From Sipunculus nudus (lineage: Eukaryota > Annelida > Sipuncula > Golfingiida > Sipunculidae), in the NCBI GenBank assembly GCA_026874595.1, contig CM049314.1, forward strand, positions 9,726,729-9,790,728: a stretch of DNA of 64,000 bases, read 5' to 3'. Below, piece after piece: positions 5,271 through 54,178 of this stretch. How positions within the stretch are numbered: the stretch's first letter is position 1; each line of letters starts with the position of its first letter. Under the pieces are notes generated by a model, which did no database searches, was not told the DNA's origin, and worked only from the letters and a program-made list of their open reading frames with translations. A program made the position numbers and the translations under genes.

Positions 5271-6794
5271 GTGACCCAGGGATCAAGACGCTCAGCTGAG
5301 TGCAGACATTCAAAAAAGGAATGTTATCATCTGAATGCCAAATTTTGTATGTGGTATTCCCATTCAACTGAAGCATAACTCAGGGGATATGGGTAACAGA
5401 GACCAAAGTTAAGGTTTCCAGGGATATTTTTCATGGACCTCCCTGCATGTCAAGTATGAAGATTCGAGCTGCAATGATTACGATTTGCGACCTCATGACG
5501 GCCGACCGCATCTTTCAGGGACTCAAAAATATAAATTTAAAGAAATGGGTAAAAATGAAAAAAATGAAGGTGGCGCTACCAGTGCAAGAACTAATGAAAC
5601 ACTTCGTGATGAATATGTATGCAAAAATTCACGGTGATGAATGCATTAGTTGTTCCGAAACTGGAAGTTTTGTATCAAATTTTTAATTATATTGAGGGGC
5701 ACGCCCTGTAGCTCACAGAGACCTAATTTCAGGTTTCCAAGAAACATTTTTATGGAACTCCCTGGATAACAAGTAAGAAGTTTCAAGGTCCAATGGTAAC
5801 GATTTGTGCCCTGTTAACGGAAGACTGCATTTTTGAAGGTTTTATAAAATGGAGAAAAATGCCAACAACCTCATGAAAAAAAACAGTCGGCGCCAGCAGC
5901 CTTAGACTCTGATGAAACACTCCATGATCAATATGCATGCAAAGAATCATGGTTATCAATGCATTAGTTGTTCAGATACTAGAGCTTTTGCATCAAATTT
6001 TTAAATTATTCTGGTAGGTACTTCTGAGCCCCACAGTCGGAAGATATGGGTAACAGAGACCTAATTTTTAGGTTTTCATAGAGATTTTTTTATGGAACTC
6101 CCTTGATAATAAGTTAGAAGTTTCAAGGTCCAATGGTTACGATTTGTGCCATGTTAACGAACAACCGCATCATTCAAGGTCTTAAAAAAAAGAAAAAAAA
6201 GGCGTAAAACTTGAAAAAATCCAGTGGCGCCACCAGTCTGCAGAAACTGATGAAACACTCCATGGTCAATATGCATGCAAAGAATCATGGTTATCAATGC
6301 TCTTGTTTCAAATGTTTAATTATTCGGGGGGGGGGGGGGGGGTTCTGAGCCCTATAGCTCAAAAGGATATGGGTAACAGAGACCTAATTTCAGGTTTCCT
6401 GGGAGATTCTTCAGTGACCTAACTTGATGTAAAGTTAGAAGTATCTATAGATACAATGGTTATGATTTGTGCTCTGTTAACAGATAGCCACGTCTCAAAA
6501 TATAGAGAAAATGCGTAAAAAATTAAAAAAATCCAGGTGATCAATACTTTGTATCAATTTTTTTTTTTATTTTTCGGGGGGGGGGGGGTACTTAAGAGTC
6601 CAATAGCTCAAAGGATATGGGTAACAGAGACTTAAATTTAAGTTTCCAAGCAGATTTTTCATGGACCTCCCATGATGTAACGTTGCAAGATTCTAGTTCC
6701 AGGATTTACGATTTGTGCCTGGTTAACGGACAGACGGACAAACGACGGCCATAGACTGATCGCTTTAGCTCACATGACTTTCAGTCAGCTAAGC
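5271..6794. repeat. Composite dispersed repeat with about 330-bp internal monomers (copy 1)
   Basis: The left edge is marked by GTGACCCAGGGATCA followed by GCTCAGCTGA. Inside are imperfect monomers of about 330 bp, recognised by GGATATGGGTAACAGAGAC near 5386, 6041, 6362 and 6615 and by TACGATTTGTGCCCTGTTAA. The right edge is a hairpin at 6767-6794 (AGCTCACATGACT, loop, AGTCAGCTAAGC) preceded by a GACGGACAAACGACGG tract. Related units sit at 9856-11376 and 50253-51967. It looks like a non-autonomous mobile element with a tandem-repeat core; I see no transposase. Confidence 0.75.
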
Positions 6795-7834
6795 CAAACA
6801 TGTAATAGGGGCCTAAAGAAAATGAACTTACATTCCTAAGTCTTCACGTGCGCGACGGTCATGTGGCCAGCGGCTACAGTGCTTTGAGAACATTACGTGT
6901 AATGTGCTTACAGCGAGTTTCAGGATTAAACAGGACTCTGTGATTTGTGTATTTATATGAACTCAATAGCAAGTGTACCTTTTGTGTGGGACGTCTCCTC
7001 CAGAGAATGTTCTTTTCGAGTCCTGGTTGATTAACACAATACACTCGATACACAAGCGCATCTAAAACAATTCACTGGTTTAACACATCGGCTATTTACA
7101 AGTCCTTTAAACATAACTGATAAGTCCGTTAGTGAGCTACGCTGGCCGTCCGCAGACTCTGACATAGGATACACAGGAAAATCGTCCCTCTGATCGGTAT
7201 AATGACAATCTCGGATCCTCCTCTGGCCGTCGTACGGCTAGACGCCGCTATCTTGCCTAGGAGATGATTTTACCCTCGTGTCCTCATTAATATTATATAC
7301 TCATGCCTACGTCACACATCCTGATCGCGTTTGGCCTATCTTCTTACAATATTATGAGACCTGTCGTTGAATGCATGAATATTAGAATGGACACGCCTCC
7401 AGAGACAAAAGTGTGAGAAAATCAAGTTTAGAGGTGCGTTGTCTTTGAAACCTACCTTAAAAAGTGCTATAACAGGAAACTGTCTAGACTAAGTCTGACC
7501 AGAACCTGGGTTCCCTAAACCTACGTTTCTACGCTAATAATTAATATACATGTATATCAATTTATAGAAACTATCTTTTGGTTATACTATCCTTACTTAG
7601 ATCTGCAAAAAATCTAATAAATAATAAACAAGTCACGGTTCTCTGGTGATAAGCATGCATGTCTTATCTTATACCAAACTTATTTTCTTTATTTCTAGTG
7701 CCTATTCACCCTAAATATGCCGTTATCCGCTAAAAAAACCTTACTTATATCTGTTCATACCTCGTATAGCATTCCGCTTCCACTGATAAGGACTGTGATG
7801 ATAATATTTGTTCAACTGATTTTTTAACAACTGA

Positions 7835-8050
7835 GTGGGGAACCTTTAAGGGTTCTAATTGGAATCTTAAACACATGTTTCTTTTTTGGAACCTTCCCAG
7901 GGTTCTTTTATAGAACCTTAAACGATTCCATCAAGAACCTATTTAAAGGTTCTGAGACGAACCTTTCAAGGGTCTTCACAGTGGACTGAGTGTTGAACCT
8001 TTAGAGCCTCTTTGTGGAATCCTATGTATATGGTTCTCTATGGACCCTTC
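7835..8050. repeat. Cluster of GAACCTTT / AAGGTTCT words in inverted pairs
   Basis: Short inverted pairs such as GAACCTTTAAGGGTTC and GAACCTATTTAAAGGTTC recur, together with GGAACCTTCCCAGGGTTC. The same cluster is present in the second copy near 12410-12625. It resembles a decayed foldback or MITE. Confidence 0.5.
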
Positions 8051-8803
8051 AAAGACGGCTAATCGTAGAAAGTCTAATTAGAATGCATTATGTATATGGG
8101 ATAAAGACCATTTGGTGTTCATATACCTCAAGAATTATTTTATCTGACCATATTGTCTCCTCAGGCAGGGCTAACATTTAATTTTTGTGTGTGCTGAAGT
8201 TACTTTATAATCGTTAATACTGCCTTCAAGTAAAGAGAAACACTTTTGATGGATTATATGATGTAATCCAACAGTATTTTCATGAAATGAGGGAAAAACT
8301 GCGAGTACTCAAAAGTAAAACTTTTACTGAAAAAGCAATTTCATTTGTGATCTGTGTGCATGATAATTCCTTTCAGGGCCGTATGTTCAGGGATGTATTA
8401 TTTCTGTTGAGGTTAATCGTCATCCATCAAAGCCTGGTAAGTAATCGGGACGATACTGAAAGTTAACGGACGGATGGATGGTCTCGATACCATATAATAC
8501 GTATAATATAAGCTACGTGGACTTGGCATGCGGTATGCGAAAATATTTTATTTTCGCTCTAGTTATTTTTTCATAATAAAATGATTATTTATTAGGAGCA
8601 ATGATAAGGAGCAAAAATTGTCATACAAATTTTCATGCAAAATGCCAATGTGGACAGAGCAACCAGATTTCGTAGGATTTTAAACACGCACGTGTAACAA
8701 AGTGTTAAACTTTTGAAAAACAGATTCTGATTAAACCGTGTAAAATGTATACATTCAAATGGCTTGATTGAATCGGACACAATATTATAAGGCCCTGACA
8801 GGC

Positions 8804-8807
<4 letters not shown>

Positions 8808-8858
<51 letters not shown>
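8808..8858. repeat. (TA)n microsatellite, copy 2
   Basis: Pure TA run at the position equivalent to 4209. The interruption and length differ between the copies, so this site has changed since the duplication. Confidence 0.9.
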
Positions 8859-8861
<3 letters not shown>

Positions 8862-9855
8862 ACATTTTGTATCGGGTTACCATTCAAATGGCTTACTTGT
8901 GAACAATATTAATGGCCCGAAATGATATGAAGTCATCAGATATGCAGATACCAGTCTGTTTATAGACAATATGATTGCATGTGGAGTGTATACTTATCAG
9001 TCTTACACACAGGATTTGTCTAGGGATCATAAAAAGTGTCTAAATATAGACCGGGCTTCCCGCTAGTGCTTGCAAAAGCTCTTTCTGGGAGAGTTCGATA
9101 TACGAGTCATTCACAGAGGGCTGTGTCGACACGGTCATATATTTTTTTCATAGGTTGTTTAAGGGGGGGGGGGGGGGGATGTCTACCATATGGATAGATT
9201 CGAGGGCACATGAACCTTACTGCTGCAGTGTATGACTATTTTTTGTTGGTGGATCTAGTGTTTGAGGGTTCAAGGACAGGTCTTAAAAACCGTGTCTGTT
9301 AGTGTACATGACCGATAAATGGGCGATGTACAGATGGCTTCAAGAGCAAATACAAAATGGTTTCAACGTCAAGGGCAAATAAAGTAGGCCTAATAGTTCA
9401 TGTTTGTGTATTTGCGGCTGGCGGGTGTATTTTTTATGGGATTATGAGCAGGTAATTTATAGTCCATGTGTGTGTTGTACGCGTCAGGTGCCCAGGTTTT
9501 CTTACAGCTCCTGTATGTTCGTGTCCGGGGCGGGTCTATCATGTTTATGGGTACAAGATCAGATGTTCTTTATAGTTCATGTCCACGTGTATATCAGGGG
9601 CTAATTCGGTAACAATTTTATGGTTTAATTAAACACGTCCTGGCTAATTCAAGCACATGTGTACACCACAGGCACAGGACTCAATGGGGGGGGGGGGGGT
9701 TGATATAATAAGCACTGGCGGCCCCTCTCTCGACCGTATTTTTAGCATTGTTACACCCCCGAAGGAATGGCCTTTAGTTCTTTTAAACGGTGGATTGAGA
9801 TGGCTGAACTCACACATACACCCCTAAAATGAGAAAGACGTGTGTGACAATACAA

Positions 9856-11376
9856 GTGACCCAGGGATCAAGACGCTCAGCTGAGTGCAGACATTCAAAA
9901 AAGGAATGTTATCATCTGAATGCGAAATTTTGTATGTGGTATCCCCATTCAACTGAAGCATAGCTCAGGGGATATGGGTAACAGAGACCAAAGTTAAGGT
10001 TTCCAGGGATATATTTCATGGACCTCCCTGCATGTCAAGTATGAAGATTCGAGCTGCAATGATTACGATTTGCAACCTCATGACGGCCGACCGCATCTTT
10101 CAGGGACTCGAAAATATAAATTTAAAGAAATGGGTAAAAATGAAAAAATTGAAGGTGGCGCTACCAGTGCAAGAACTAATGAAACACTTCATGATGAATA
10201 TGTATGCAAAAATTCACGGTGATGAATGCATTAGATGTTCCGAAACTGGAAGTTTTGTATCAAATTTTTAATTATATTGAGGGGCACGCCCTGTAGCTCA
10301 CAGAGACCTAATTTCAGGTTTCCAAGAAACATTTTTATGGAATTCCCTGGATAACAAGTAAGAAGTTTCAAGGTCCAATGGTAACGATTTGTGCCCTGTT
10401 AACGGAAGACTGCATTTTTGAAGGTTTTATAAAATGGAGAAAAATGCGTACAACCTCATGAAAAAAACAGTCGGCGCCAGCAGCCTTAGACTCTGATGAA
10501 ACACTCCATGATCAATATGCATGCAAAGAATCATGGTTATCAATGCATTAGTTGTTCAGATACTAGAGCTTTTGCATCAAATTTTTAAATTATTATGGTA
10601 GGTACTTCTGAGCCCCAGAGTCGGAGGATATGGGTAACAGAGACCTAATTTTTAGGTTTTCATAGAGATTTTTTTCGGGACTCCCTTGATAATAAGTTAG
10701 AAGTTTCAAGGTCCAATGGTTACGATTTGTGCCCTGTTAACGAACAACCGCATCATTCAAGGTCTTAAAAAAAAAGAAAAAAAAGGCGTAAAACTTGAAA
10801 AAATCCAGTGGCGCCACCAGTCTGCAGAAACTGATGAAACACTCCATGGTCAATATGCATGCAGAGAATCATGGTTATCAATGCACTTGTTTCAAATTTT
10901 TAATTATTCGGGGGGGGGGGGGGTTCTGAGCCCTATAGCTCAAAAGGATATGGGTAACAGAGACCTAATTTCAGGTTTCCTGGGAGATTCTTCAGTGACC
11001 TAACTTGATGTAAAGTTAGAAGTATCTATAGATACAATGGTTATGATTTGTGCTCTGTTAACAGATAGCCACGTCTCAAAATATAGAGAAAATGCGTAAA
11101 AAATAAAAAAAAAATCCAGGTGATCAATACTTTGTATCAATTTTTTTTTTATTTTTCGGGGGGGGGGGGGTACTTAAGAGTCCAATAGCTCAAAGGATAT
11201 GGGTAACAAAGACTTAAATTTAAGTTTCCAAGCAGATTTTTCATGGACCTCCCATGATGTAACGTTGCAAGATTCTAGTTCCAGGATTTACGATTTGTGC
11301 CTGGTTAACGAACAGACGGACAAACGACGGCCATAGACTGATCGCTTTAGCTCACATGACTTTCAGTCAGCTAAGC
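9856..11376. repeat. Composite dispersed repeat, copy inside duplication copy 2
   Basis: Same structure as the element at 5271-6794, carried along in the 4.6-kb duplication. The terminal hairpin is at 11349-11376. Poly-G runs inside differ in length from copy 1. Confidence 0.75.
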
Positions 11377-12954
11377 CAAACATGTAATAGGGGCCTAAAG
11401 AAAATGAACTTACATTCCTAAGTCTTCACGTGCGCGACGGTCATGTGGCCAGCGGCTACAGTGCTTTGAGAACATTACGTGTAATGTGCTTACAGCGAGT
11501 TTCAGGATAAAACAGGACTCTGTGATTTGTGTATTTATATGAACTAAATAGCAAGTGTACCTTTTGTGTGGGACGTCTCCTCCAGAGAATGTTCTTTTCG
11601 AGTCCTGGTTGATTAACACAATACACTCGATACACAAGCGCATCTAAAACAATTCACTGGTTTAACACATCGGATATTTACAAGTCCTTTAAACATAACT
11701 GATAAGTCCGTTAGTGAGCTACGCTGGCCGTCCGCAGACTCTGACATAGGATACACAGGAAAATCGTCCCTCTGATCGGTATAATGACAATCTCGGATCC
11801 TCCTCTGGCCGTCGTACGGCTAGACGCCGCTATCTTGCCTAGGAGATGATTTTACCCTCGTGTCCTCATTAATATTATATACTCATGCCTACGTCACACA
11901 TCCTGATCGCGTTTGGCCTATCTTCTTACAATATTATGAGACCTGTCGTTGAATGCATGAATATTAGAATGGACACGCCTCCAGAGACAAAAGTGTGAGA
12001 AAATCAAGTTTAGAAACTTTGAAACCTACCTTAAAAAGTGCTATAACAGGAAACTGTCTAGACTAAGTCTGACCAGAACCTGGGTTCCCTAAACCTACGT
12101 TTCTACGCTAATAATTAATATACATGTATATCAATTTATAGAAACTATCTTTTGGTTATACTATCCTTACTTAGATCTGCAAAAAATCTAATAAATAATA
12201 AACAAGTCACGGTTCTCTGGTGATAAGCATGCATGTCTTATCTTATATCAAACTTATTTTCTTTATTTCTAGTGCCTATTCACCCTAAATATGCCGTTAT
12301 CCGCTAAAAAACCTTAGTTATATCTGTTCATACCTCGTATAGCATTCCGCTTCCACTGATAAGGACTGTGATGATAATATTTGTTCAACTGATTTTTTAA
12401 CAACTGAGTGGGGAACCTTTAAGGGTTCTAATTGGAATCTTAAACACATGTTTCTTTTTGGAACCTTCCCAGGGTTCTTTTATAGAACCTTAAACGATTC
12501 CATCAAGAACCTATTTAAAGGTTCTGAGACGAACCTTTCAAGGGTCTTCACAGTGGACTGAGTGTTGAACCTTTAGAGCCTCTTTGTGGAATCCTATGTA
12601 TATGGTTCTCTATGGACCCTTCAAAGACGGCTAATCGTAGAAAGTCTAATTAGAATGCATTATGTATATGGGATAAAGACCATTTGTTGTTCATATACCT
12701 CAAGAATTATTTTATCTGACCATATTGTCTCCTCAGGCAGGGCTAACATTTAATTTTTGTGTGTGCTGAAGTTACTTTATAATCGTTAATACTGCCTTCA
12801 AGTAAAGAGAAACACTTTTGATGGATTATATGATGTAATCCAACAGTATTTTCATGAAATGAGGGAAAAACTGCGAGTACTCAAAAGTAAAACTTTTACT
12901 GAAAAAGCAATTTCATTTGTGATCTGTGTGCATGATAATTCCTTTCAGGGCCGT

Positions 12955-14463: not shown

Positions 14464-15329
14464 TCAGCTGAACCAGGAGCCGAAAAATCTACCTAATGCA
14501 CCAAAAAGGGCTGTAACCAGGCCTTCATTTTCTGGTTCATGAGTGCTGCTTTGGTGTTCAGGTTCCGAATATCTACGGTTGATAGTAGGTTGGTGCTGAA
14601 CTCTATAGCTCGTCGGTGGCACATGAACTGTTGTTCGAGGTTGCTCCCATGAGCACCCTACCCGCACCGCCGGCTTTTTGGGCGGTACGTTACACACAAC
14701 ACAGTCCCGTTTCTTCCTGATACCACCCCATGTTGATGAACCGCGACCAATTGTACCTACAGTCTCAAATGAAGCTTTCCCAATGTTCTGAAGGCGGGAT
14801 ATGTTAACCGAATCGACATAGAAGACCTCAACCCACAGGTCTCTTCTGTTAGTGACATGAACCGATCCCCCGAAAGCACTCAGGCGCAGAAATGAATTGC
14901 TGTTGATATCGAGTTCTATCAGTTCCTTGAGGACTGGAAGTTCAGAGACCCTCCTGTATGGGACCAGCACCAGCTGGACGTGGTGTGGGCGCCCGTTCAT
15001 GCAGAAGAAATCGGAGAAGTACAGACGACAGTTGCTGTTGATCAGCTCGGTGGGTTTGACCAGTAGACGACGTCTGCCGTAGGGGGATGCCGAGGGTCTC
15101 GGGGTGTTGGCGCTGAAGAACACTCCCCGAAGTCGGCCGTTAATGGGGTTCCTGGGATCACCACCCCCATCTTTCAGTTCAGTGCTCATTAAACCGCCAG
15201 TCATTTCAATCTGAGAAAAATAACTTTCAGACTTGTTCCGATACAAATACTGACATTCTCGAAAGCTGCTGTACCCATTATACGTCTTGGCAAATTCAAG
15301 GAGACTGTTCAGTTCATCTTTGGAGTAAC
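14464..15329 (-). CDS. Terminal exon of a PHYHIP-like protein (gene B)
   Basis: Read leftward from an acceptor ATTTGTAG (AG at 15331-15330), phase 1, the exon encodes 287 residues to the stop at 14464-14466. It matches the C-terminal domain of phytanoyl-CoA hydroxylase-interacting proteins well. After YSKDELNSLLEFAK come LYRNKSESYF, NPINGRLRGVFFSANT, SPYGRRRLLV, CRLYFSDFFCMNG, VQLVLVPYR, LIELDINSNSFLRL, LWVEVFYVDSVNISRL and CVVCNVPPKKP, colinear with the vertebrate protein. After the domain comes a Ser/Pro/His-rich linker of about 60 residues, ending in a hydrophobic/aromatic segment (LVTALFGALGRFFGSWFS) that may associate with membranes. The N-terminal fibronectin-type exons known in vertebrates are not found. 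Gene A is a more divergent paralogue with the same intron position. The molecular role is not established by sequence. Confidence 0.88.
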
Positions 15330-15805
15330 CTACAAATGATGTTTCTTTGAGATAGCCTTCATATATTTTATAAACATTTCATAATGTTTATTTTTCTCAT
15401 GAAACTTACATTTACAGTATAAAATCTGTATATAGACGGACATTTTATATGCATGAAGAATTAAGCAAGATATAATATTGAAAAGTAATCCTATAATATC
15501 AAAATGTAAAAGTGATGTATGGTTAATATTACCCATAGATTTAGTAAGATTTCTCTTCTTTATATTTTAATAAAATGGAATTTATTTGCTCTATAATTGT
15601 ACAATAGGTGCACCAACAGGAACGGCATGGGCATACCTATCCACATTAGCGGTAAATATTGCACATCACATTAAGCAACATTTGGATAGCTTGCACCAAG
15701 GCCGATATATGTAATTAGACGAGGAGCTGTGGAAAGAGCTTTCATCCAGCTGCGAAAGAAGCCATGTTGTACATATAAATAAAGGTTACGTAAGCGATTA
15801 CTCAC

Positions 15806-15831
15806 TGTCGTGGTACGGCATTGTGGATAAC
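15806..15831 (-). CDS. Possible 26-nt microexon preceding gene B terminal exon
   Basis: A strong acceptor CTCCTTTTTCAG ends at 15832 and a consensus donor GTGAGT begins at 15805, enclosing 26 nt. If read ..TTA TCC ACA ATG CCG TAC CAC GAC A, it leaves one base, which is the phase needed by the 15329 acceptor, and would join as PYHD-S-YSKDEL. The support is splice sites and phase only; a 26-nt piece has no homology power. Confidence 0.35.
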
Positions 15832-15839
15832 CTGAAAAA

Positions 15840-16197: not shown

Positions 16198-16800
16198 AGT
16201 CTAGAAAAAATAGGGATGAACGCGGAACAAATTGCAACAGAAATGAAACCAACTGCATTTTACTCAGAAACTTCTCGAGAATAATATATCGAAAGTGCAA
16301 AAAGGACCCATTGGGGGAAAGTCATTTAATTTGATTATTTTAATTGGCTAAATAACTAATAAGTTTTACTATATTTGTCTGCATATTGTCATATTAAGCT
16401 TTGTCTTCACCACTATTAGTGACCACTCATTTGAAAGATCTTTTCATTGCCTATCTATTAAATCTGACTATGAAGCCAATTTACCAATAATAACGAATTC
16501 CGTAAATTGTTTAGAGCAGGGCTCAATAACACTTCCCCACATCCCCAAGCAGTTGAAAATATATATGAGAACAACCTGCCCCGGCGTCTGAAAGTTGGCA
16601 GCTGGGATTACGATATAACAGACCATCATACAGTCTAAGTGAATATCACATACATGATAAATCAAACAGAAATCTAGGAAAATGATATTTCATATCACAA
16701 TACGTATCGTGAGGGATATAAAGTTCTCGACATCAGGGAATATTTAGAATTTAAATGGTGCTCAACCAAATTTCAATAAATTGATATTTAGCTTATGGAA
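16198..16800 (+). repeat. Long inverted repeat, left arm
   Basis: This arm of about 600 bp is repeated in reverse complement at 18765-19395. Blocks that match include TCATATTAAGCTTTGTCTT, GAAAGATCTTTTCATTGCC and TCTGAAAGTTGG, in the same order. Identity judged by eye is about 75-80 percent, with small indels. Confidence 0.85.
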
Positions 16801-18764: not shown

Positions 18765-19395
18765 CACAAATCAATTTGCAATTTATTGAAATGGGGTTGA
18801 ACCCCATTTATATGCTAAATGTCCTCTGATGTCGAAAACCTTATATCCCTCATAATACATATATAAAACATGATATAAAACATCCCCTGCTCCTATATTT
18901 CTATATGATTTATCCTGTATGTCATATTCCCTTGGTGTGTCTCAAGGGCACGGTTTGATTTATCGTAGGCCCAGCTGCCCAACTTTCAGACACTCGAACA
19001 AATCGTTATCACGATATTTGACACACCTTAGGCAAGTGGGCATGTGTTATTGTCGAGCCCTGCCCTAATCTATTTATATATACTTGTTATCATTGGTAAA
19101 CTGACATCTTGGTTAGATTCAATAGATAGGCAATGAAGAGATCTTTCAAATGAATGGTCACTCATAGGGGTAAAGACAAAGCTTAATATGACAATGTGCA
19201 GACAAGTAAAGTAAAACTTATTAGTTAATTAGCCAATCAAAATCATCAAATTAGGCCTAAATGATTTCCCCCAATGGGACTTTTTGGCACTTTTGATATG
19301 TGGTCCCCTGAAGTTTCTGATCATCATACAGCAAAGATCATTTCTGTTTCAATTTTTTCGGGATTTGGCTTAAAAATCATGTAAAATGACTAGAC
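18765..19395 (-). repeat. Long inverted repeat, right arm
   Basis: Reverse complement of 16198-16800, ending near GACTAGAC where the left arm begins GAGTCTAG. The two arms have diverged by substitutions and short indels, so this is an old structure. Confidence 0.85.
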
Positions 19396-20590: not shown

Positions 20591-20603
20591 GGAAAAAACA
20601 AGG

Positions 20604-23139
20604 GACCCATGGGTCACGTCGCTCAGCTGAATTTTGGAAAATTTTAGCAATTGCAAAATATGCTCATTTTTATATATCTATTACCATTTGGAAAGCTAAA
20701 AGGAAATATACCTACTAACTGGTGATAATCAAATATTAAATATATATTTGCTGAACTGATACTGTGCACTTTTATGGTATATATCAAAGATACAGAAGCA
20801 AATATTTCTAGAGGTATCATTAAGTCAGCTATGTGACAGTAATTTGTGCATAGAATAACCATGGGAATGTATGAACACCTGTCAATTATAGAATAAGGAA
20901 AAAAGTGGAAATTATCTGAAGTATAATAATACACATTTAATTTATAACTGAAATAAAATGCTGTAAAAAAATTTTAAATTCCATTTTCAAATGAGCATTA
21001 ACTAAACCTGATAAATATATATTGTATTACAATTATGGCACGAAAACATTTAATAATGCAATAAGGAAATAAAATTATGTGCCTAAGAGTTATATGAAAG
21101 TATACGTTTGACCAACAAAATATGTGTTAACTTTATTAATGTCTGGATAGAGGGAGGGAGGAGGAGGAGGAGGAGAGCAAGAAAGAAAGAGAAAAGGGGG
21201 GATCATTCAACATTGCTTATAGGAAAAAGGCTGATTCATAATTATTATATATTTAATGATAAACATGACAAATGGACAGACAGAGCTGATCACTTTATGT
21301 CCCGTTCTGCTGTGGCAAGAATATGTTTCAATTAGATCCTAATTTTTTTATAACACCATATTTTTTTTATTTAATAAATCCTTATACACACGGCTATAAA
21401 ATTAATGGGCAAGTCCCCAGGTGCAAGGGCTCAATGGAAAGGGGGGGGGGGGTAATGGTGAGAGTTACAACATCTCTGCATATATATACAGGATATGTAA
21501 TTTAAGGCAACAGTGCCTGCAGCAGGAAAAATTTATTCATAATTATTAGGTATTTAAAAACAGACAGAGAGGTGGACAAAGCCAATAACTTTATTTCATA
21601 TTCTGCTGAAACAGGAAAATGATGAACAAATTTTTGCATAAGATCATTTTTTTATTACATAAAACATATTTCAAGTTTACCAATTTTATACATTTACAGT
21701 ATAACATATATATCCGAATATATAAGCTGATTCTTAATTCTAAATTGAACCAACAATTAACCCTGATTTGGTCAGACAGCATCACAATATATGCATACAG
21801 GTGTAATTATTATCTTTTTCTTTTACTACAAAAAATATATTTTATTAATTTGCAAAACAATAAATATATGAAAGTAAAACTTAATCCAGAATTCACAATT
21901 TTAAATGGTACCTTTATTTATTCATAATTTGGCTCATGTATTATCAAATTATGCATACCGGTGGCTTAAATCGCTGAAATATTAAAAAGGGAAATTAATA
22001 TCTTTAAAAATGCTATATTACCACAATGTGGTATCTTCAGGATTATTCCTGAATTACCAATTCAAGAAAAAAAATTGTACTGGAGTGGAAACAGCAATAC
22101 AATAAAGGATATACAGTTAAAAATTACTTCATAACGTACACTAAGTGGGTTGGGGGGGGGGGGGTTATATGATAATAACTGTACACCTGTGACAGCAGGG
22201 GATTTCCTGCCAGTGACCCATTACAAATCAGGTACCCTGGCATAGATAACCTCCAGTGACCAGAAGTGGGTTGCCTGCATCTTGACAATGCAAGTGAATA
22301 CAATAGAGCCTACAATTAAAATTAAAGAACTAGCCTATCTTTTTTAGCTTTTAATTTCAAATCAAAGATATAAACAGATTATATACTTACATGTATACGC
22401 TTCGAAAATGAAACCAACAGTACTTACGGGAAATAAAATGAGTCATGGTCAAAATTGGGCAAAATTTAAGGTACTGATTTTATACTTATCCTAATTATTT
22501 AAAAAAAAAATACAAAATTCGGATCTAACTTTGGGTTAACAATTGAACCTTGAACAATTGAACCTTTATTATATAAAGTTATATCCCTGAAAAAATGTCT
22601 CTAGCTTCAACAATTATCATTTTAAGTTAGAAAATATCTTTCCTGATTTTTTTTAAAAGTACATTATGTTCAGGCCCATAACTTTAGGAAATTACGGAAA
22701 ACTGAGCTAATTTTGGCTTGTACATAGGAAACATATAAAAGAATATTTCTGCCAGAGATAGGCAAAACAGCTCTTGTGGTTTTGATATTAGGCAGTCCTG
22801 AAGTGGAATAATAGTTTTTTTTATGGAAAATTAAGGGTTTTTCTTAATTTCTCAAAAGAACGAAGACGCAGTGATCCAGTTTTTGTTTTGGTAGGTGAGC
22901 TATGAGACATGTAACTGTATCTTGAATTTTGGATTCGTAGGTCCAACGGTTTCACAATGTGCCCTTTTCACGCACAGTAGCCGTGACAAACACGACACAG
23001 TTAGGGTCCTCCTACTTCTGGCAGGGCAGCGATCTGGCCGTAATGTCAGAGGCCCGATCTATCGCTACACGCACAGACGACCGGACGGACGACGGACAAA
23101 GGACCATCGCTATAGCAGATGACTTATAGTCAGCTGAAC
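20604..23139. repeat. Dispersed repeat unit, 2.5 kb, with palindromic left edge and hairpin right edge
   Basis: The left edge carries the perfect palindrome GACCCATGGGTC followed by GCTCAGCTGA. The right edge is the hairpin at 23112-23139 (TAGCAGATGACT, loop, AGTCAGCTGA) after a GACGGACGACGGACAAAGG tract, then AACTAAAAA. The last 700 bp (from about 22445, ATGGTCAAAATTGGGC) matches two units at 44622-45914. It contains poly-G runs at 21441 and 22151 and two diverged internal monomers near 21235 and 21536. No coding capacity seen. Confidence 0.65.
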
Positions 23140-23145
23140 TAAAAA

Positions 23146-23559
23146 AAACTTTTGGAAATATTGTCATGTAGTGTAATTTTAGTCCACAAAAAATGTTTTG
23201 CTGTTACTGGCTGCTTAAAATAGCCTACCTTTTAAAATTGAAATATTTTCTAAAATGTTACAAAATCATGTTAAGGGAATGAAAAGTTAAAAAATATGAA
23301 TACTATCAGAAAGATCCCTGTTTAAAATAATGTCGATTTTATATTGCCTAATATGATTTTTTATCAACTTTTGGATATATGAAATTAGCCAGGGATGATA
23401 CCTTAAGATCAAAAGCAACAGCTGGGAGTTTAAACCCAGCCAGGAGACAAGAGCCGACGGTGGAGGTGTGTGGGGGGGGGTGGGGTGGGGGTGGGGGCGG
23501 GGGGAGCTGAAGAACACAGGTAGGTGGCCAGGATTTGTAGTTGGTTACTTAAAACAGCA
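23146..23559. other. Lead-in to the minisatellite
   Basis: AT-rich, then a G-rich low-complexity block (23470-23512) directly before the array. No gene. Confidence 0.5.
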
Positions 23560-27610: not shown

Positions 27611-27660
27611 ATAACATCAGGAGACCACCAGGGGTTGTAGCTGGGGGATTATAATATCAG

Positions 27661-31525: not shown

Positions 31526-31540
31526 TATATATATATATAT
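31496..31540. repeat. (GTAT)n / (TA)n microsatellite
   Basis: A tetranucleotide run grading into a TA run. Confidence 0.9.
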
Positions 31541-31880: not shown

Positions 31881-31886
31881 TTTATT
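31881..31886 (-). promoter_or_regulatory. Candidate polyadenylation signal for ENOX
   Basis: TTTATT on the plus strand reads AATAAA on the minus strand, about 350 nt past the ENOX stop codon. It is the nearest canonical hexamer I found, but AT-rich sequence makes chance matches common. Confidence 0.3.
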
Positions 31887-42688: not shown

Positions 42689-42744
<56 letters not shown>

Positions 42745-45700
42745 TATCAATATTTTGCCTCGTGACCTTTAAATCTACAGGTGTGGTCATGTGAATAATA
42801 TACATAAACTGCCAATGAGGCTATATAATAAATGACTGATCAATGAAGCATCTTATTCACACAGGTGTCATTTTTGCCGTAATTTCTTTTTCGCAAAGAT
42901 CATGAATTTGAAACCCTCACAAACAAGAAACCAACCGCAGTATTAGAACCATGGCATATGTCACACCAACAGTCCACATACCATGCGTGATATTGTCCCA
43001 GGAACTCACCAGAATTTTAATTAATAATTTTAATCTATTACTGGTAAGCTATTCCCTGAATCTCATATTAAGCTGTAAAAATAATCAATTGTTTCATTCT
43101 TATGTAATTTGTTTATTTTAGAGTAATTTTGAAGTACCACATAGGTGAACACACCATTTCCTTTCCTCCTCCCTTGTAGATTCCTGAATGCCACCATTTG
43201 AGCCATGAAGAGTGCCTTACATTACTTATTATAACTAATTGTACAATCCATATAAAATAAACAAAGTTTATATTAAATGTATATTATTTCTGCAGCAAAA
43301 TTATGGCAGTGGGCACCCAATGGCCATACCAGTTCAAATTATATATTACCTGTACATCCTTATGTTATAGTGGATGAAAAAGGCATCTGCTTACAAGAAA
43401 AGTTGGAACACATAAAATGGGGCAAATTTAATCCTTCTAATGCTTCAACCTTTCCACATTTTCCTGAAGGACACAATTATCGAGGACTTCTGTAGGGAGA
43501 TTACTTACAAAAGAGGAAAAAAAAGCTATATGCAGTGAACTCCTTTCACATTATCTGTAACATATCCTTGAATTGCTGACTTGGAGCAGTTATGTTGCTT
43601 ACCACTCAAAACCCATTAGGACTTGTGCCAGTCAATTGATGGGAGTCAAGAGCCAATTAAAAAATGTGCAAGTTAAGTATAACATAATATTCCATATATT
43701 CAATATTATTTACACAATGACAGGCCAGTTAAGACTGCAGGATTTGATCCTTCACACAAAAGTGAACCCTCTGTTTGCCATGACAACTCTTCATATTTAA
43801 ATTAACAGGTGGAGCCAGTTTTAGCCGAACAAAGATGTTGAGAATCCAGAATATACAAAATTGACAAATTTAAATAATGATCATAAGTACCTGGTTTTAT
43901 GGCTTTTATTTATATTAAAAAAAAAATAAATGTAACATATTCACTTTGGACTACTTTCACATCAATCTACACACTAGACACACTAGGAATCTAGATTAAT
44001 ATTATCAACTGCATCTTTGTCGATCATTAATTTCCTTCATATGATCCCTAATGATTAGTAATGAATAATATGATTTATTTTTTTATCATTAAAATTTCAC
44101 TGAAAAATAGCATAGGTGACTGCATGGTGTTATTTGGAATAACACTGACATTGACATTCTATCCATCCATACAAGATTCTTACATCATCAGTAACTGCAA
44201 GTTAATTTTCTGTTACTCATCAACTAACAAATTCCTTTTCTATTAATTTTTCTTTAATTTGTTATAAAAAAAAACAATACAAAATTATTAATTTATTGTT
44301 TATTTGTTATGTTGTGATTCAAAACAACTACTAGATGAGTTGGGTTGGACACCTGGATCAACTGTGGCTGGGCATTAGCTGCCTAGCTGGCCCAGTGTAT
44401 GCTTCGCTCAAGCATGCATAATCTGATGAAAGGTCAACAAGGTCAACATACAGGTGACTGAAGAGGGGCTGGATTAAGCCTGGGTCTGACATGGTCTCAT
44501 AAAAACATTAATAAAAGCTACAATATTTGGCCAATTTCTTTCAGCTTTCTAAACTACAAAGATGAAATCCTTATGTGTGCATGATATGAAAATTATATCA
44601 ACAGTGCTCTCTGGAAACAAACGTGCCATGGTCAAAGTTGGGCAAAATTTAAGGTACTAATTTTATATTTATACTAATAACTTACAAAATTTGAAAAATT
44701 CAGAACTAATTTTTGGTATTCAATTGAATCTTGATTAAATAATGTTACATCCCTGACAAAAAATCTCTAGCTTCAGCAATCCTCTTGTTAAGGGAGTAAA
44801 TATATTTCTTGATTTTTTAAAAAGTGCATTATGTTTGGGCCCATAACTTAAAACAATTACGCAATACTGACATCATTTCTGGCATGTGCATAGCGAATGT
44901 ATAGAAAAATATGTATATTATATATGATCAAAGTCAGATCAGTGGTTTGATATTAGGCAGTCTTACAGTGTAACAATGGGTTTTTAATGGAAAAATGAAG
45001 TTTTTCATTAATATTTCGAAGGAATTAAGTCCTAGTGATCAAATTCTTGGCATGGTAGGGGATTTTGGAGACATCTAACTGTATGCTAAATTTAAGGAAC
45101 TTAAGAGCTGAAGCTGGGGAGCTGAGCTCTAGCAAACTGCATAACACTAGCTTGATGTAAACTTGATGTGACATGGAGCTTGAAAACTTGAATAAAATCT
45201 ATAGTTTTTGATCAACTGGTTTCAAATTTTTGGTGTTAACAGACAAAATGCTAACAAAAACATGCTGTGAAAATTAAATCCACAGTACTTACAGGAAAAA
45301 AACGTGCCATGGTCAAACTTGGGCAAAATTTAAGGTACCAATTTTATATTTCTGCCAATATTTAAAAAATTTTAACAGATTTTGATCTAATTTTTGGTAT
45401 ACAATTAAATTTTGATCAATTTAAGTTGTATTACTGAAAAAAAATCCCTACCTTTAACACTTTTGGTCTTAAGTGACCAAATATCTTTCCTGATTTTTTT
45501 ACAAAGTCCATTATGTTTGGGCCCATTACTTTTTTAAATTAAATAATACTGACTTAATTTCTGGCATGTACATATGAACTATATAGAGGAATATTTATGC
45601 TAAATATGAAGAAAACCAGATGAGTGGTTTTGATATTAGGCAGTCCTGAAGTGTGAAAATAGATTTCTAATAAAAAATTGAGGTTTTTCCTTTATATCTC

Positions 45701-48700
45701 GAAGGAACAAAGTCCTATTGACCCAATTTTCGGCATGGTAGGAGATTTTGGAGACATCTAACTGTATGGGGAATTTCAGATTCGTAGGTCCAATGGTGTC
45801 GAAACGTGCCAGTCTTACAGACGGACATCCAGACAGATGGACGGACAGACAGACGGACGGACATTAGACAATGGACCACGACTATAGCTCAGATGACTTA
45901 TAGTCAGCTGAGCTAAAAACAGAGCTGCCTCTTCATATTCAGATTTGAAAAATTCAACTCAAATCTTTATGTATGGAGAGTTATAATGGAAACAGAGGCT
46001 CAGTATTAATGTATTATATGACTGGCATTTCAGAAACACAAAGGTACATAACACTGACTATATACAGCCAAACACAGGCTTTTACTTGTCATACCTATTG
46101 TTAATCGCTGCTCCTACTTGGGAGGCTGTAGATACACCATAAGGTGGAGTGACACCAGTCACGATACCTTATCACTGGGCCAAACGCTGCGCTCTTTGTT
46201 TCATGCCACTAATCAGAGGACCATTATACTCATCCAGATATTACAGTATCAACACTTGTCCAGGATTCCAATAACGGATTCTGCGTGACTGTACACATTA
46301 AGGTTACACTACCACACAACTTACTCTGTCGCAAAACTCCCTCCATCTGCTGTCTGTATTTTTCCTTCATCTGTTCAAACTCCTCGTCGTGTTGCGCTTT
46401 CTCGTTCATGAGACGGCGGATGTGGGCGTTTGTGCTCTGCACCATGCTGTAGAAGTTGTTTGCGCTTCGCTTGGTGCAGTCTCCCCGCTCCAGCCAGATA
46501 CACAGGATCTGTGCCGCTTTCATAAAGGAATCATCTCCTGTTATAATAACAAAAACAACCATACAACAAAACTCTTGATACATTATCACTGGGCTACTCT
46601 TAAAAAATGATTTCAAATAGCACGATTCATCAGATTTCAATACTTTCAATGCTGAAATATTCAAGACAATTTCAAATTTTAAATTTTCACAATTCTTGAT
46701 TTCTTAGGGAACTTTAACTGCATTATAACTTAACTTCATTATATGATGTGCACTACAAACCAATCATTATTTCTTTGCAGTTAATTGTTTGTTCTTATTT
46801 TTAATTTTATTCTGCCAAATAATTATATTCTGATAACATTCTGTACAAAACTGTACCAATACAGGAACAAAACACCAAGAGATTTGCTCTCATCAGGAGA
46901 AAGACTAGTACTTATAATTTTGTTAGCACTATACACATATATTACATTCCAGATCAGCTGACACAAGGCTGGCTGTGTTATACCAGAGGCTATGTGAGAG
47001 GTAAAGGATGAATCGCTGGACCACCCTGTCACACTGGAATCTCTTCTAGTAGGCACCTCCATAAAGTGGACACTTTTATAAAGTGGACTGTTTGGCACAG
47101 TCCCACGGGTCCCCACATCATAAAGGTTTGACTGTATTATGAAATTTAATGAGGAAGTTAATATCTGAAATCTCTTTTGAGACCAGCTTTGTTGTCCCTT
47201 CCACATACTATGTGGGCTAACTGGTGCTCAGCCCACTTTTTAAGTGGTTTACACTTTGACATAAAGTCAAACCATGATATTAATGATTAGAGTTTTCAAT
47301 CAAAATTTCACCCAAACTCATTTTTAACACTGTAGGCTTAACACACACAGCCTCTCAAGTCCCATGTCTTAACCACAAGGCTTAGTCTTAAGTAGAAAAG
47401 TTCTGAAGTGATTCATTCACTCTGAACATACACTAAGATTCTGCATGTTAAAAGCTTGAGTAGGAGTTAAAACTATTTCAGTACCTTTCAGTCTGTCCAT
47501 GAGGACACCAGCCTCGTGTTCAGAGTAGTGAACAACTGGTGGTGGACTGGGAGGTCTCAGTCTCTCTTCTTCGATTCTCATGCGATGGCGTTCCTCACGG
47601 GCCAGCACCCGCTGTTTACACTCCCACTCATACAGGTCATCTCGAGCCTGAGCATAATCCACGTGTAGTCGGCCAGTGTTTGGTTTGTCATCCAGATCAT
47701 TGATCTTCATACGGTAACCTGAAATTATTCACACCACCTTACAGATCTGTAGCTTAAAGTCCCTGAATAACTGAATAATGCTTATGTATTATAATACATG
47801 CTATGGATATTCTCAGGTACCTAACAGACCTAACAGTCTCGCCATTTAAGCTTGCTTGTTTTGCAAAGTGGTTGGAACACTGGACTTATGTGCCATCCGC
47901 AATGGGTTTGAATCCTGGATCAGCCCTACTATATTTACCCCATAAAAAAAATCACCTTATATTTAAGTTGAAAAAAAGCAACTTATGTCCTTGTGTGACA
48001 CTTTTGTCCACTCATACCAGCAGCTTTCCTATGATTGCATGGCTGCTAATGTTCAGAGTCACAGTCTGAGGAGGTCTCCTGATACCAGTGAACAAAGCTG
48101 TCACTACAAGTATGTCAGGGGCTGTTCAATTGTCCGTGGTATGTAAGATGTAGTTACAAGGTATAAGATTAACAAGCATGGTGCCAATTGTGATCAATAA
48201 TTAATTTTGTGACAATATAACAAGGAGGTATGAACTCTTCCAAATTCACAAACACATATATATTTCTGAGGCTTACTTACCTGAAATATATATAGCTTTG
48301 TCCACAGATTCTTCATTTTCAAATCTCAGGTGAGAAAAATTCTTCTTGCTCATCCGTATACTACAGATTGGTCCACAACTCTCAAACAGCTCACGCAGGA
48401 TTTCATCTGTACAGGTCTCAGGCAGACCCCCTACGAAGATCGTCCTGCACCCTGGTGGGCGTTCCCTCACTGACGGTGGCGGGGCATCTGGACAAAGAGA
48501 TAGCAGCCCTTGTATTGGTCCAAACTACTACCCATCATTTAAACAGTAAAGCTAAGAACCCATATATATGGAATGATGAATGCATGTTGAGAGATTTCAT
48601 ACTTACAGGCATGATAAGTATATTTTCTATGTGTCATTACTGGATACAATTCCAAACCAGCAAAATCACTACATGTAGAGATTAGTGTTACAGGATATGC

Positions 48701-51700
48701 AATCAGCATACTGAATCTGCGCGTAAGGAATCTCTCCTTATTTGGTCAATACTGAATTTACCCACATTCCACATGCTGGATCTGCACTGCGTTCCTTAGG
48801 AAAGGAAATTGCTCAAAAGGTGATAGGTTAACTATGTTTCATGAAAAATAATGAAATAATATTTTCTTTTTATTTACCTGTTACATATGTTGTTATGGTT
48901 CTTTGTGTGAGTAAAACAGTCCACAGTCTGTTTTCTATAACCAGCCTGCTGACAAGAGGTCTGATCTTGCACAGGGGCAGAAGAAACACTGGTTGGAGGC
49001 TTGATAAATCTAATAAGATTTTGGCAGATACCCCTTTAGTGTAAGGAGGAAACACTTTATATGAATATTTAATATGTCTGGCATGTGAATAGGTCCCTTA
49101 AACCCCACTGCTCTATGTGTATGTGTGTGTTATACAAGTGTAACTTACTCATTGGAGGCGGGTACAGGGTGGCGTTCTTCAGGTGTACAGGCTGTTTTAT
49201 TGGTGCAGCAAGGCCTGGCATGGGGCTCATGAAACCTCCATACTAAAACAATGAACATTACTAATTACATATGTATGTCTCTTACCAAACAACTAAAACA
49301 AGAATACATCATTATTGTGCTATCCATCCCAAGCATCTTAATTACAGGATCGGGCATTCATATTAAATCTGGAAATTCCAATACAATTTTTATTGGCAGT
49401 TGATGATAAAACCATGTAAAACAGGACATAATGAATTTGTGAAAGGAGTCCAGTAGCAAAAGGTGCAATGTACCCCTAATTTTTGACAGCCATGATTAAA
49501 CTTAAATTCTACCCACTTGTCAAGAATATAGATAACTGTATGCACATGTAATAACACGTATCATCCACATATCACATTACCTTAACAAGGAAATTAAGCA
49601 TTCAGATCTGGATACAAATTTTTTGTTTGCAGGGAACCCCACACTGCATCAATATACTCACTGGTGCATACCCCATTGGACCCATCATGGGGTCATTGGG
49701 CATACCCCCCATCATGGGGTTAAAGGGCATTGGAGCCATGGGAGGATGCATCATGCTGGGCATGCCTGCCATGGGCATGTTGCTCACTGGGCTTGTGCTG
49801 TCTGCTCCACTCATCACTACATGCTGTATTTCATCTGTGGAAATTAACAAAAGTACTTATAGTATTAACCCAAAATAATATGAACTTAAGAAAGATTGTG
49901 GTTCTACAATCAATACCCATTTATGGGTTAATTGTATCCGCCAAAACAGAGTTTTGCAGATACTATGTTTTCAGCCCACCACCGCCGCAGCCACCGCCGC
50001 CGCGTAGGTGTCCGGAGAACTCCTCCGTAACTGCTGGGCGGAATTTTACGAAACCCGGGATTATGTTCAGGTCACATGTGAACTGCTGCGCCCCGATTTT
50101 GTTTTGACCTCTGACCTTTTCTCTGCGCTCTGCGTCCGTTTGTGCGTCTGCTTCCACACATAAACCCACATATCTGGGGAACCATTTGACCAATCAGGAA
50201 ATTTTTTTGCACAAATGTAGCCCTTGGAGAGCTTTATAACATACACAAACAAGTGACCCAGGGGTCATGACGCTCAGCTGACCAGTAAGACATTGACAAA
50301 AGTAATTTTATCATCTGAATGTCAAATTTGAATGAAATACTTTTTCCAAACTTGACCTTTTGTATAAAATCATCCAATATTCATTGGGGTACTATGGAGC
50401 TCTGTAGCATGAAGGATATGGGTAACAGACACCTATTTTCAAGGTTTACAAGATGACTTTTCAGGGGTCTCCCAGCATGTCAAAAAATAAAATTCTAGGT
50501 CCAGTTATTATGATTTGTGCCCTGTTTACAGATCACCAAATGTTTAAAGATCACAAAAGTAGAGAAAAAAAATCGTAAAAAATAAAAAAAATATAGGTGG
50601 CGCCACCAATCTCCAGAAATTGATGAAACACTCCATGATCAATATCCATGCAAAGAATCATGGTGATTAATGCATTAGTTGTTCAGATACTTGAGCTTTT
50701 GTATTAAATTTTGCATTATTCTGGGGGGTATTTCAGAACCCCATAGCTCGAAGAATATAGGTCACAGTGACCTAATTTCAGGTTTACAAGGAGAATTTCC
50801 ATAGACCTCCCAGGATGTCAAGTAAGAAGATTCCAGGTCTAGCGGTTACGAATTGTGCCCTGTTAACAGACAAACGCCTGGATGGCCGGACAGACGACGG
50901 ACAAAAGGTGATCCCTATAGCTCAGATGACTTTCAGTCAGCTGAGCTAAAAATTGAAAAAATACAGGTGGCGCCACCAGAATGCAGAAACTGATGAAAAA
51001 TTTCATGATCAATATCCATGCAAAATATCATGGTGATCAATATAATAATTGTTCAGATACTTGAGCTTTTGTATCAAATTTTCCATTATTCTGGGGGGTA
51101 TTTCGGAGCCCCATAGCTCAGAGGTTATGGGTAACAGAGACCTAATTTCAAGTTTTTAAGGAGACTTTTCATGGGCCTCTCAGCATGTCAAGAGAGAAGA
51201 TTCTAGGTCCAGTTGTTACGATTTGTGCCATGTTAACAGATGACCGCATCTTATGAGGTCTCAAAAATAGAGAAAAATTTCGTAAAAATAAAAAAATTCA
51301 GGTGGCGCCACCATACTGCAGAAACTGATGACACATTCCATGATCAATATCCATGCAAAGAATCATGGTGATCACTGCAATAGTTGTTTAGATACTTGAG
51401 CTTTTGTATCAAATTTTCCATTATTCTGGGGGGTACTTCGGAGCCCCATAGCTCAAAGGTTATGGGTAACAGAGACCTAATTTCAGGTTTCCAAAGAGAC
51501 TTTTTATGGGCCTCCCTGCATGTCAAGAGAGAAGATTCTAGGTGTAGTCGTTACGATTTGTGCCCTGTTAACAGATGGCCGCATCTTAAGAGGTCTCAAA
51601 AATAGAGAAAAATATTGGTAAAAATCGAAAAAAATACAGGTGGCGCCACCAGTCTGCAGAAACTTATGAAACACTCCATGATCAATATCCATGCAAAAAA

Positions 51701-54178
51701 TCATGATGATCAATGCATTAGTTGTTAAGATACTTGAGCTTTTGTATCAAATTTTCCATTATTCTGGGGGGTACTTCGGAACCCCATAGCTCGAAGAATA
51801 TAGGTCACAGTGACCTAATTTCAGGTTTACAAGGAGAATTTCCATAGACCTCCCAGGATGTCAAGTAAGAAGATTCCAGTTCTAGCAGTTACGATTTGTG
51901 CCCTGTTAACGGACAGACGGACAAAAGGTGATCCCTATAGCTCAGATGACTTACAGTCAGCTGAGCTAAAAATGGTGGCGCCACCTGCAACCATGTTTGC
52001 ACAGTGTCCATCTGTTTGTCTGCCTTGGGTTTAAATCACTCATATCTCTGCAGTGATTTGACTAATTCACCTGAAATTCGGCATGCGTATTCATCCTGGA
52101 TAGCTTTTCTGATTTTATGACAGGTGGCGCCACCTACATTCACATTTATGCTGCAGACATCCAAGTTCATATCTCGGGAACCATTTGACCGATTGGGCCA
52201 AAATTTTGCATGTGTATAGATTTCACATAGCTCTTGATCATACGCAAAACTGATGGCGCCACCTGCAGCCATTTTTGCACAGCTCCCGTCTGTTTGTCTG
52301 CCATGGGATAAAATCACTCATATCTCGGCAGTGGTTTGACATATCCGCCTAAAATTTTGCAGGTTAATACATCCCCGACAGCTCTCTTGATTTTATGACA
52401 GGTGGCGCCACCTGCATTCTAGTTTATGCAGCAGACATCCAAGCTCATATCTCGGGAACCGTTTGACCGATTGGGCCAAAGTTTTGCATGTGTATAGTTC
52501 TCACATAGCTCTTTATCATACGCAAAACTGGTGGCGCCACCTGCAGCCATTTTTGCACAGCTCCTGTCTGTTTGTCTGCCATGGGATAAAATCACTCATA
52601 TCTCGGCAGTGGTTTGACATATCTGCCTAAAATTTTGCAGGTTAATACATCCCCGACAGCTCTCTTGATTTTATGACAGGTGGCGCCACCTGCATTCTAG
52701 TTTATGCAGCAGACATCCAAGCTCATATCTTGGGGACTGTTTGACCGATAGGGCCAAGGTTTTGCATGTGTATAGTTCTCACATAGCTCTTTATCATACG
52801 CAAAACTGGTGGCGCCACTACAACCATTTTTGCAAAGCGTCCATCTGTTTGTCTGCCACGGGCTAAAATCACTCATATACATGTAGTGGTTTGACTTATC
52901 TGCCTTAAATTTTGCATATGTATACAACTTGGACGGCTTTCTGGATTTTGTGGTAGGTGGCGCAACCTACATACACAATTTGGCTGCAGACATCCATGCT
53001 AATATGCAACACTTCACTCTATTTCCCCTTGCCACTCAATCCATGCCTCACTTCACCCGTTCCACTCTATTTTAGAGTGGATACACGTAGTCGCTTGTCG
53101 ACTACCCGTATTTTAGTTATTTTATGAAAACACAGAAAATATATACAACATAGAATCTTGTGAACCTGTTGTGCTTTGATGGTTACAGAGTATATTATAT
53201 ACAGTCGAACCTCTCTTAGTGGGCACCTCCATAAAGTGGGCCCCTCTATAAAGTGGGCACTTTTGGGCAGTCCCATGTTTTCTTCTCTTAATTATGTTTA
53301 GCTAATGTGGGCACCTCAATATTCTGTAAAGTGGGCACTTTTCCCCAGCTTATGTGGGCACTTCATCAATTTCCCCAATTGAAGTATCTTGCTATTTAAA
53401 CTTTTCTGAATTTTATTTATTATGAATTATTAGCCATCATAGCTACTGTTGATTATTACATATTTATATTTCAACTGTTTATGATAATGATCAAACATGA
53501 GCAAAGGTCAGATGTGTATTACTGTCTAATAGCATAATCATTATAACAGTCTTCTTGACGTAAGGTTAGGCATGGGAGACATTCATACTGATTAGACTTC
53601 TTATTGTGCCTGTACATGCTACGGTCAGACCTCAGCCCAGACTGGTTGCTTTGATGATTGTTTACAGCCAGCAGTGAATGCACCATTCACGAGCCATTCA
53701 TATTGGACTGATAAGCATTTACTTTGATCTAACAGTCACTGGACTTTCTTATTTCCGCAAAGCAAAGAAATTGTTATAGTTGATACCATGAGTGGACGCC
53801 CAGCTCATTTACCCAGGTACTTCCCACTCTTAGATGAGGTAACAGTAAAGGTGCCCGGCTCAGAGCAATGCTTACTAAATAGCAGTTGCACTTAATGATC
53901 AACACCATATATTGATCATTCACATGCATTCTGTGTGTACTCACTTTTACTGTCCACTTATGTTCACCCCATATTAAGGGTATTTGCATAGACCTAAATG
54001 TGTACCTGTTCAAAGATCCTGACAGTGGCTTGTCTTGGAGAATGTTTGTAGAAGAGTATGGTATATCTAAGGAGGCATTGGTTAACTTATCAAAATATTA
54101 GCAGATTTAAATGATAGGATCAATGCTTGTAGGTTATGTCCATGATGGCATCGATATATATTATAACACACACGTACA

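Follow-up and report, generated by a model that had tools for sequence, protein, structure and literature searches.

Satellite-carrying elements of probable Helentron origin in Sipunculus nudus and an autonomous Helentron with the same ends

Results

We analysed a 64,000-nucleotide stretch of the Sipunculus nudus genome (GenBank assembly GCA_026874595.1, contig CM049314.1, positions 9,726,729 to 9,790,728 of the forward strand; hereafter the window), in which units built from different tandem repeats lie between the same two ends. Helentrons are rolling-circle DNA transposons of the Helitron group, and the window units are very probably HINEs (non-autonomous Helentrons) which are mobilised by the Rep-PIF1 helicase-endonuclease of autonomous relatives in the same genome. 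The direct evidence consists of the ends themselves, a T-run target with no duplication of non-T bases at seven sites, the abundance of the ends, the variety of the cargo which they enclose and a class of autonomous elements which has these ends too. A first-pass annotation had likened the units to non-autonomous Helitron- or Helentron-like elements, and this reading is supported by the pairing of the ends in genomic loci, by insertion into T-runs and by the autonomous element. The genome searched was the species' own 1.43-Gb chromosome-scale assembly, in which the window lies on contig C9. HINEs were defined as in PMC4067079 and PMC7492417; here and below, statements about cited papers refer to those parts of them which were available to us.

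Structure of the ends in the window

Read on the minus strand, a unit opens with TT (within a T-run), the 5' subterminal inverted repeat (subTIR) AGCTCAGCTGACT, a 3-nt loop, the inverted copy AGTCATCTGAGCT and a GTCC-type microsatellite, and then runs through tandem repeats to the 3' subTIR TCAGCTGAGCG, the palindrome TGACCCnnGGGTCA and TTG. This order matches the layout of HINEs, and the "hairpin end" of the first-pass annotation is therefore the 5' end and its "left end" the 3' end; the orientation had been reversed. Two types of ends were distinguished: type I, with GCGATCAC at the 5' end and TCATGACCCATGGGTCAC or close to it at the 3' end (A and B in the window), and type II, with TGGTCC at the 5' end and GTGACCCATGGGTCCC at the 3' end (C and, by its 5' end, D), type II HINEs having a GCCGTGACCCATGGGTCCCTTG-type end. 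The elements and their parts are as follows:

50250..51970, minus strand: element B, a type I HINE of 1.7 kb within a 278-bp satellite array; both ends exact, joined flanks match uninterrupted units
51939..51972, minus strand: 5' end of B, with T-run, 5' subTIR AGCTCAGCTGACT, loop and inverted copy
51910..51927, minus strand: microsatellite-like tract (GTCC/GTCT) at the 5' side of B, from the sequence
50331..51915, minus strand: 335-bp tandem repeats of B
50919..50952, minus strand: second 5' hairpin, inside B, where two repeat monomers meet
50253..50281, minus strand: 3' end of B, with subTIR TCAGCTGAGCG and palindrome TGACCCCTGGGTCA
51973..53005, strand unassigned: 278-bp satellite array hosting B
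5268..6797, minus strand: element A, a degenerate HINE of type I, its repeats ~335 bp long
9853..11379, minus strand: element A2, which is insertion A copied by a 4.6-kb tandem duplication
20599..23142, minus strand: element C, a type II HINE (5' TGGTCC, 3' GTGACCCATGGGTCCC) with one 690-bp-type unit
44487..45916, minus strand: element D, the 5' part of a type II element, with ~680-bp units in two copies; over 1435 bp it runs colinearly with the element of locus L016 at 80%
45886..45919, minus strand: 5' end of D, exact hairpin
1843..1874, plus strand: element E, a lone 3' end

The six hairpins which had been described as shared are exact in three cases (45886, 50919 and 51939, by pattern match in the window), whereas those at 6767, 11349 and 23112 each have 4 mismatches out of 32 specified letters (hairpin plus AAAAA). 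An A run follows four of the six and is lacking at 6767 and 11349. The hairpins do not always close a unit as had been stated, since 50919 is internal to element B, and they are not six separate occurrences: a tandem segmental duplication of ~4.6 kb (97.8% identical, 3802-8382 and 8391-12954) carries element A twice, so the hairpins at 6767 and 11349, and likewise the 3' ends at 5271 and 9856, go back to one insertion. The left ends match exactly at 5271, 9856 and 50253 and with a single mismatch at 20602; a fifth copy with 2 mismatches, on the opposite strand at 1843-1871, had been missed. Within the window the 3' end of D (hairpin 45886) was not recognised, and no 5' end was found for E in 1-1842.

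Markov controls (5 sampled windows) gave no closer match than 7-9 mismatches for the left end and 11-13 for the hairpin. A further scan, devised after the ends were already known, used no motif letters from the hairpin and looked for TTTT, inverted-repeat arms of 11-13 bp around a 2-11-nt loop and then at least two GTC[CGT] tetramers; it found 3 places in the 64-kb window, which were the three exact hairpins, and 0 or 1 per Markov control (n = 20). Inverted repeats lie near both ends: GCTCAGCTGA is inverted at the two ends of B, and the 5' copies of A and C differ from it by 1-2 substitutions. The window was without a match in Rfam at gathering scores, and viral contigs scanned for the 5' and 3' end patterns gave 0 and 0 occurrences.

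Copies across the genome and what they carry

The exact 3' end pattern was found 5288 times genome-wide (2613 forward and 2675 reverse), and the reversed pattern used as a control was found 0 times. From a query with the 5' end we scored the best 40 of 741 candidates and fetched 20 of those 40 as 10-kb loci (L009-L028). The copies can be collected by both ends, as the first-pass annotation had suggested, for in 19 of the 20 loci the queried 5' end is followed on the same strand by a 3' end (at most 6 mismatches), some loci having further 5' ends between the two. The exception, L010, has a broken Rep-helicase (RepHel) gene ~10 kb downstream of its 5' ends on the same strand.

Together with the window, the loci yielded 45 5' ends after one duplicate was dropped, of which 30 were type I, 12 type II and 3 other. 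In these ends, which were picked by sequence, 12 of the 13 positions of the 5' stem are paired in 41-45 of 45, and one position is a fixed mismatch; this C.T mismatch, at the eighth stem pair, is kept in 43 of the 45. The majority-letter ends of the fetched copies contain a 12-bp subterminal inverted repeat, GCTCAGCTGACT, a GTCC/GTCT tract after the inverted 5' copy and a 3' palindrome, TGACCCATGGGTCA, ~4 nt from the 3' terminus. We also observed that CAGCTG is kept in the majority strings of both the 5' and the 3' subTIR despite the C.T mismatch in the stem.

The same ends enclose different bodies, as had been noted, and there are more body types than the first pass had seen. We compared 25 adjacent 5'-3' pairs, 21 from the loci and 4 from the window, the latter including both copies of the duplicated A, and B counted from its internal hairpin. 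Their lengths range from 0.53 to 8.3 kb. Seven type I elements from the fetched loci have a ~336-bp array towards the 5' end and a ~278-bp array in the 3' half; other pairs have the ~336-bp array alone or a 180-bp or 166-bp array, and in the remainder Tandem Repeats Finder detected none of such a size. The cargo of type II elements is a ~680-bp unit. There were no frames of at least 170 aa in the 20 fetched loci.

Target sites

Flanks were joined in all 5'-3' combinations, giving 61 joins of which many are wrong pairings. A spanning match was found for 10 and none for the other 51 at the chosen threshold; 4 of the 10 were discarded as wrong pairings or artefacts of shared ends, leaving 6 clean sites with an uninterrupted relative:

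L009 outer element against L016: 95%
L009 inner element against L017: 97%
L013 against L018: 79%, the weakest
L016 against L012: 91%
L025 against window 44152-44388: 91%
B against L018: 90%

At three of these sites the filled site equals the trimmed element plus exactly five extra bases, which we take to be TT in front of AGCTC and TTG behind GGTCAC; the other three have three or four extra bases because the T-runs differ. Element B sits within the 278-bp array, since its joined flanks match uninterrupted units of that satellite. A seventh site is provided by a HINE inserted within the RepHel gene of a Helentron on contig C8, where an uninterrupted relative on contig C17 is 92-93% identical. 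All seven sites show insertion into a T-run and none shows a non-T target duplication, the mark by which the first-pass annotation had proposed to tell another transposon class; it should be noted that duplications of T's only would escape detection. The T's which precede the 5' end prove nothing alone, because they were built into the scan pattern. The TTGTT after the 3' end lies outside that pattern and is kept in 33-35 of 36 copies at each position.

An autonomous Helentron with the same ends

The Helitron_like_N domain (PF14214) has at least 143 matches in the genome (best 150 of 195 candidates scored), in frames of up to 2426 aa. We read one copy, at C17:35630192 (hereafter the C17 element), as a whole. 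It contains a single frame of 2342 aa with Herpes_teg_N-like, DUF6570, Helitron_like_N, PIF1 and Exo_endo_phos domains, the last of these barely at its cut-off (24.6 vs 24.5 bits) and Exo_endo_phos_2 under its own. The stretch FYRVEFQQRGSPHIH in this frame fits the Rep motif 2 which is diagnostic of Helentrons (F/Y..R, with S between G and P). The shared 5' end precedes the frame by 6.8 kb and has 2 mismatches, and the shared 3' end, with 1 mismatch, follows 1 kb past the stop of the frame, giving an element of 14,885 bp. Apart from one internal 5' hairpin, no further end with at most 9 mismatches was found on the same strand between the two.

To follow the gene and the 3' end together we used a query made of the last part of the gene, the 3' tail and the 3' end, and scored the best 40 of 1566 candidates. 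It matched from end to end at 7 places: the C17 element itself, one copy each on C10, C5, C9, C1 and C8 at 98%, and C17:37211172 at 90%. In four more diverged copies the gene and the 3' end were matched as separate pieces, for a total of 11 of the 40 scored places. For 4 of the 6 other full-length matches the position of a 5' end was predicted, and an exact 5' end was found at all four. The first 80 nt of these ends are alike at 78-80 of 80 positions, and the preceding 100 nt are unrelated (19-32 identical). The 5' ends at the predicted places and the 3' end matches together mean that five copies of 14.9-16.3 kb carry both ends. The other four have the Rep match between the ends in frames of 571-1124 aa; these four were read at the 5' end and matched by the query at the 3' end. 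The C17 element and a broken C8 copy have further colinear pieces in common upstream of the gene. The autonomous partner with Rep and helicase which the first-pass annotation had proposed to look for thus exists: the C17 element encodes an endonuclease as well, the same two ends are present in it and in four more copies, and the C17-type class is the probable mobiliser of the window elements.

Another RepHel class (L030, L031 and L033; 2230-2426 aa) was considered as a partner and set aside, as the 2.8-3.5 kb of upstream sequence which we read contained no 5' end; this absence carries little weight, because the 5' end of the C17 element is itself 6.8 kb upstream of the frame. Nor was a 3' end found within ~3.3-3.6 kb downstream of L042, which belongs to this class, or of L043, a C17 relative (89% alike). 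Members of the L030/L031/L033 class have short lysine- and arginine-rich repeats at the N-terminus (MPRTKRKSFKQKKK...) and several long open frames.

Element B and the internal hairpin

Over 1549 bp, a stretch which takes in the internal hairpin at 50919, element B is 91.4% identical to the left (5') part of the C5 Helentron. Each of the five autonomous copies read also has a second 5' hairpin, which follows the same monomer junction (by eye) and is 0.7-1.1 kb inward of the first, and we therefore regard the internal hairpin of B as an inherited feature of the array and not as a separate end. According to PMC4067079, a family is defined by at least 11 identical bp in the subTIR and a subfamily by 80% identity over the last 60 bp. 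B and the C17 element fall within the 11-bp limit through GCTCAGCTGAC, and A and C share at most 10 bp with the C17 subTIR, which is below it. On this rule B and the C17 element belong to the same family and to different subfamilies.

Since the internal hairpin falls between monomers of the 336-bp array in the five autonomous copies read and in B, it could conceivably serve as a working alternative start, and starts at either hairpin together with exchange between arrays could build or resize satellite arrays. We regard this as improbable; if true, it would make the transposon itself the satellite generator.

Other features of the window

Only four open frames of at least 140 aa between stops were found in the window. 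Ten window frames were scanned for domains, giving PHYHIP_C in two and a sub-cut-off STT3 match in one. The PHYHIP_C frames are on opposite strands, at 1893-3167 (plus strand, E 9.9e-11) and 14467-15378 (minus strand, E 1.5e-27). A very long minisatellite with units of 36 and 40 bp extends over 23488-31263, a few hundred bp past the 5' end of C, and an inverted repeat pair is found at 16225-16858 and 18704-19359 (76% over 659 bp). An array of ~260-bp units lies at 39484-40544, within a region ending at 40686, and 40001-40686 resembles the inside of the L017 type II element at roughly 65-73%. Possibly the region 39484-40686 belongs to element D as its far part, separated from the rest by an insertion.

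Discussion

In the mechanism which we propose, autonomous relatives in the same genome would make a large Rep-PIF1 helicase-endonuclease protein, which would recognise both ends, by TT, the subTIR and its inverted copy on the 5' side and by the subTIR and the palindrome on the 3' side, copy one strand between the two and insert the copied strand between two T's without duplicating the target. Anything between the ends, here different satellite arrays, would travel along. We infer that the copying would be of the rolling-circle kind, that the protein would recognise the ends and that the C17-type class, rather than another RepHel class, would move the window elements.

Several results weigh against this assignment. 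The gene end was matched without this 3' end at 29 of the 40 scored RepHel places, among them C13:9113133, which is 89% alike and had no 3' end in the at least 3.3 kb read downstream. The linkage query ends 5 bases past the element, and its matches therefore show the co-occurrence of gene and 3' end and not a boundary. The C17 element is the only one of the five copies for which the whole protein is known in one frame, and the broken C8 RepHel copy has a 5' end ~10 kb upstream and no 3' end within 6 kb downstream. No partner was recognised for the type II elements (C and D), and other RepHel classes could move some of the subfamilies. The last 60 nt of B are identical to those of the C17 element at 45 of 62 aligned positions. 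Covariation in the stem was sought in the 45 ends and none was found, the stem being conserved as sequence in ends which were themselves selected by sequence.

Canonical Helitrons, which have 5' TC and 3' CTRR termini and insert between A and T, have a protein of the same superfamily, and the 3' palindrome and the absence of a target duplication are common to both. However, the ends here are TT-AGC... and ...CTTG, insertion is into T-runs, the Rep motif has S before PH and FYR, which is the Helentron signature, and an endonuclease domain is fused to the protein. The elements are Helentrons rather than canonical Helitrons, and we give the latter very little chance. We think it just as improbable that the units are miniature inverted-repeat transposable elements (MITEs) or other cut-and-paste DNA transposons with inverted termini: a 10-12-bp inverted repeat is indeed common to both ends, but it is subterminal, the extreme ends (TT-AGC and CTTG) are not inverted copies of each other, and the 7 uninterrupted relatives show no duplication beyond T's.

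The units could also be satellite DNA spread by recombination only, with the hairpin as a hot spot or a part of the satellite unit. Many of the elements are mostly tandem repeat, and hairpins recur at a monomer boundary within arrays. Yet there are precise-edged single insertions in unrelated flanks, one of them inside a protein-coding gene, and exact ends number in the thousands, and this explanation too seems to us highly unlikely. HINEs, probably mobilised by autonomous relatives, remain the best explanation. With thousands of copies and a few near-identical Helentrons of 14.9-16.3 kb with the same ends in one chromosome-scale assembly, it becomes directly testable which protein moves satellite DNA in this genome, and also whether one mobiliser serves related ends with different repeats.

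Comparison with known systems

The Pacific oyster genome is rich in HINEs with satellite cargo (PMC7492417). Like our elements, the Cg_HINE elements of Crassostrea gigas described there begin with a 5' subTIR and its inverted copy, continue through a GTCY-type microsatellite and satellite-like tandem repeats and finish with a 3' subTIR and a palindrome. They likewise have a T-rich target without target site duplication, the same flanks around unrelated repeats (Cg_HINE group 2), two arrays per element and arrays which all face one way with respect to the ends (by eye in our elements). The monomers differ in size, being ~278 and ~336 bp here (plus the ~680-bp unit) and 138-181 bp in Cg_HINE, in a comparison made without the subTIR sequences. 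The bivalve elements Pearl (CvE), MgE and DTC84, as described in PMC7492417, also have short satellite-like arrays between conserved flanks; the repeats of Pearl are ~160 bp, and it is likened to our elements by description and not by sequence.

In the available parts of these papers, the Cg_HINEs could not be linked to any autonomous element (PMC7492417) and there was no evidence of autonomous Helitrons in C. gigas (PMC7992393), whereas an autonomous class with the same ends was found here. We found no report of such an autonomous partner in the mollusc literature which we could consult in part, outside Repbase and subscription journals, and a text search of the literature for the end sequences gave no transposon paper by title among the matches listed.

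HINE-Mo/Helentron-Mo and DINE-1 (PMC4067079) share with our elements a palindromic subTIR 2 nt from the 5' terminus, a 3' palindrome, insertion between T and T and a RepHel with a fused endonuclease and the Helentron-diagnostic motif 2, and there too HINEs are deletion derivatives of Helentrons. Unlike in the mite families of that paper, where the 3' palindrome and the subTIR are 8-35 and 38-60 nt from the terminus, these distances are ~4 and ~21 nt here, and our frame differs from those of HINE-Mo/Helentron-Mo and DINE-1 by its Herpes_teg_N-like domain. The kind of element is already known, and what is new here is this family together with its probable mobiliser.

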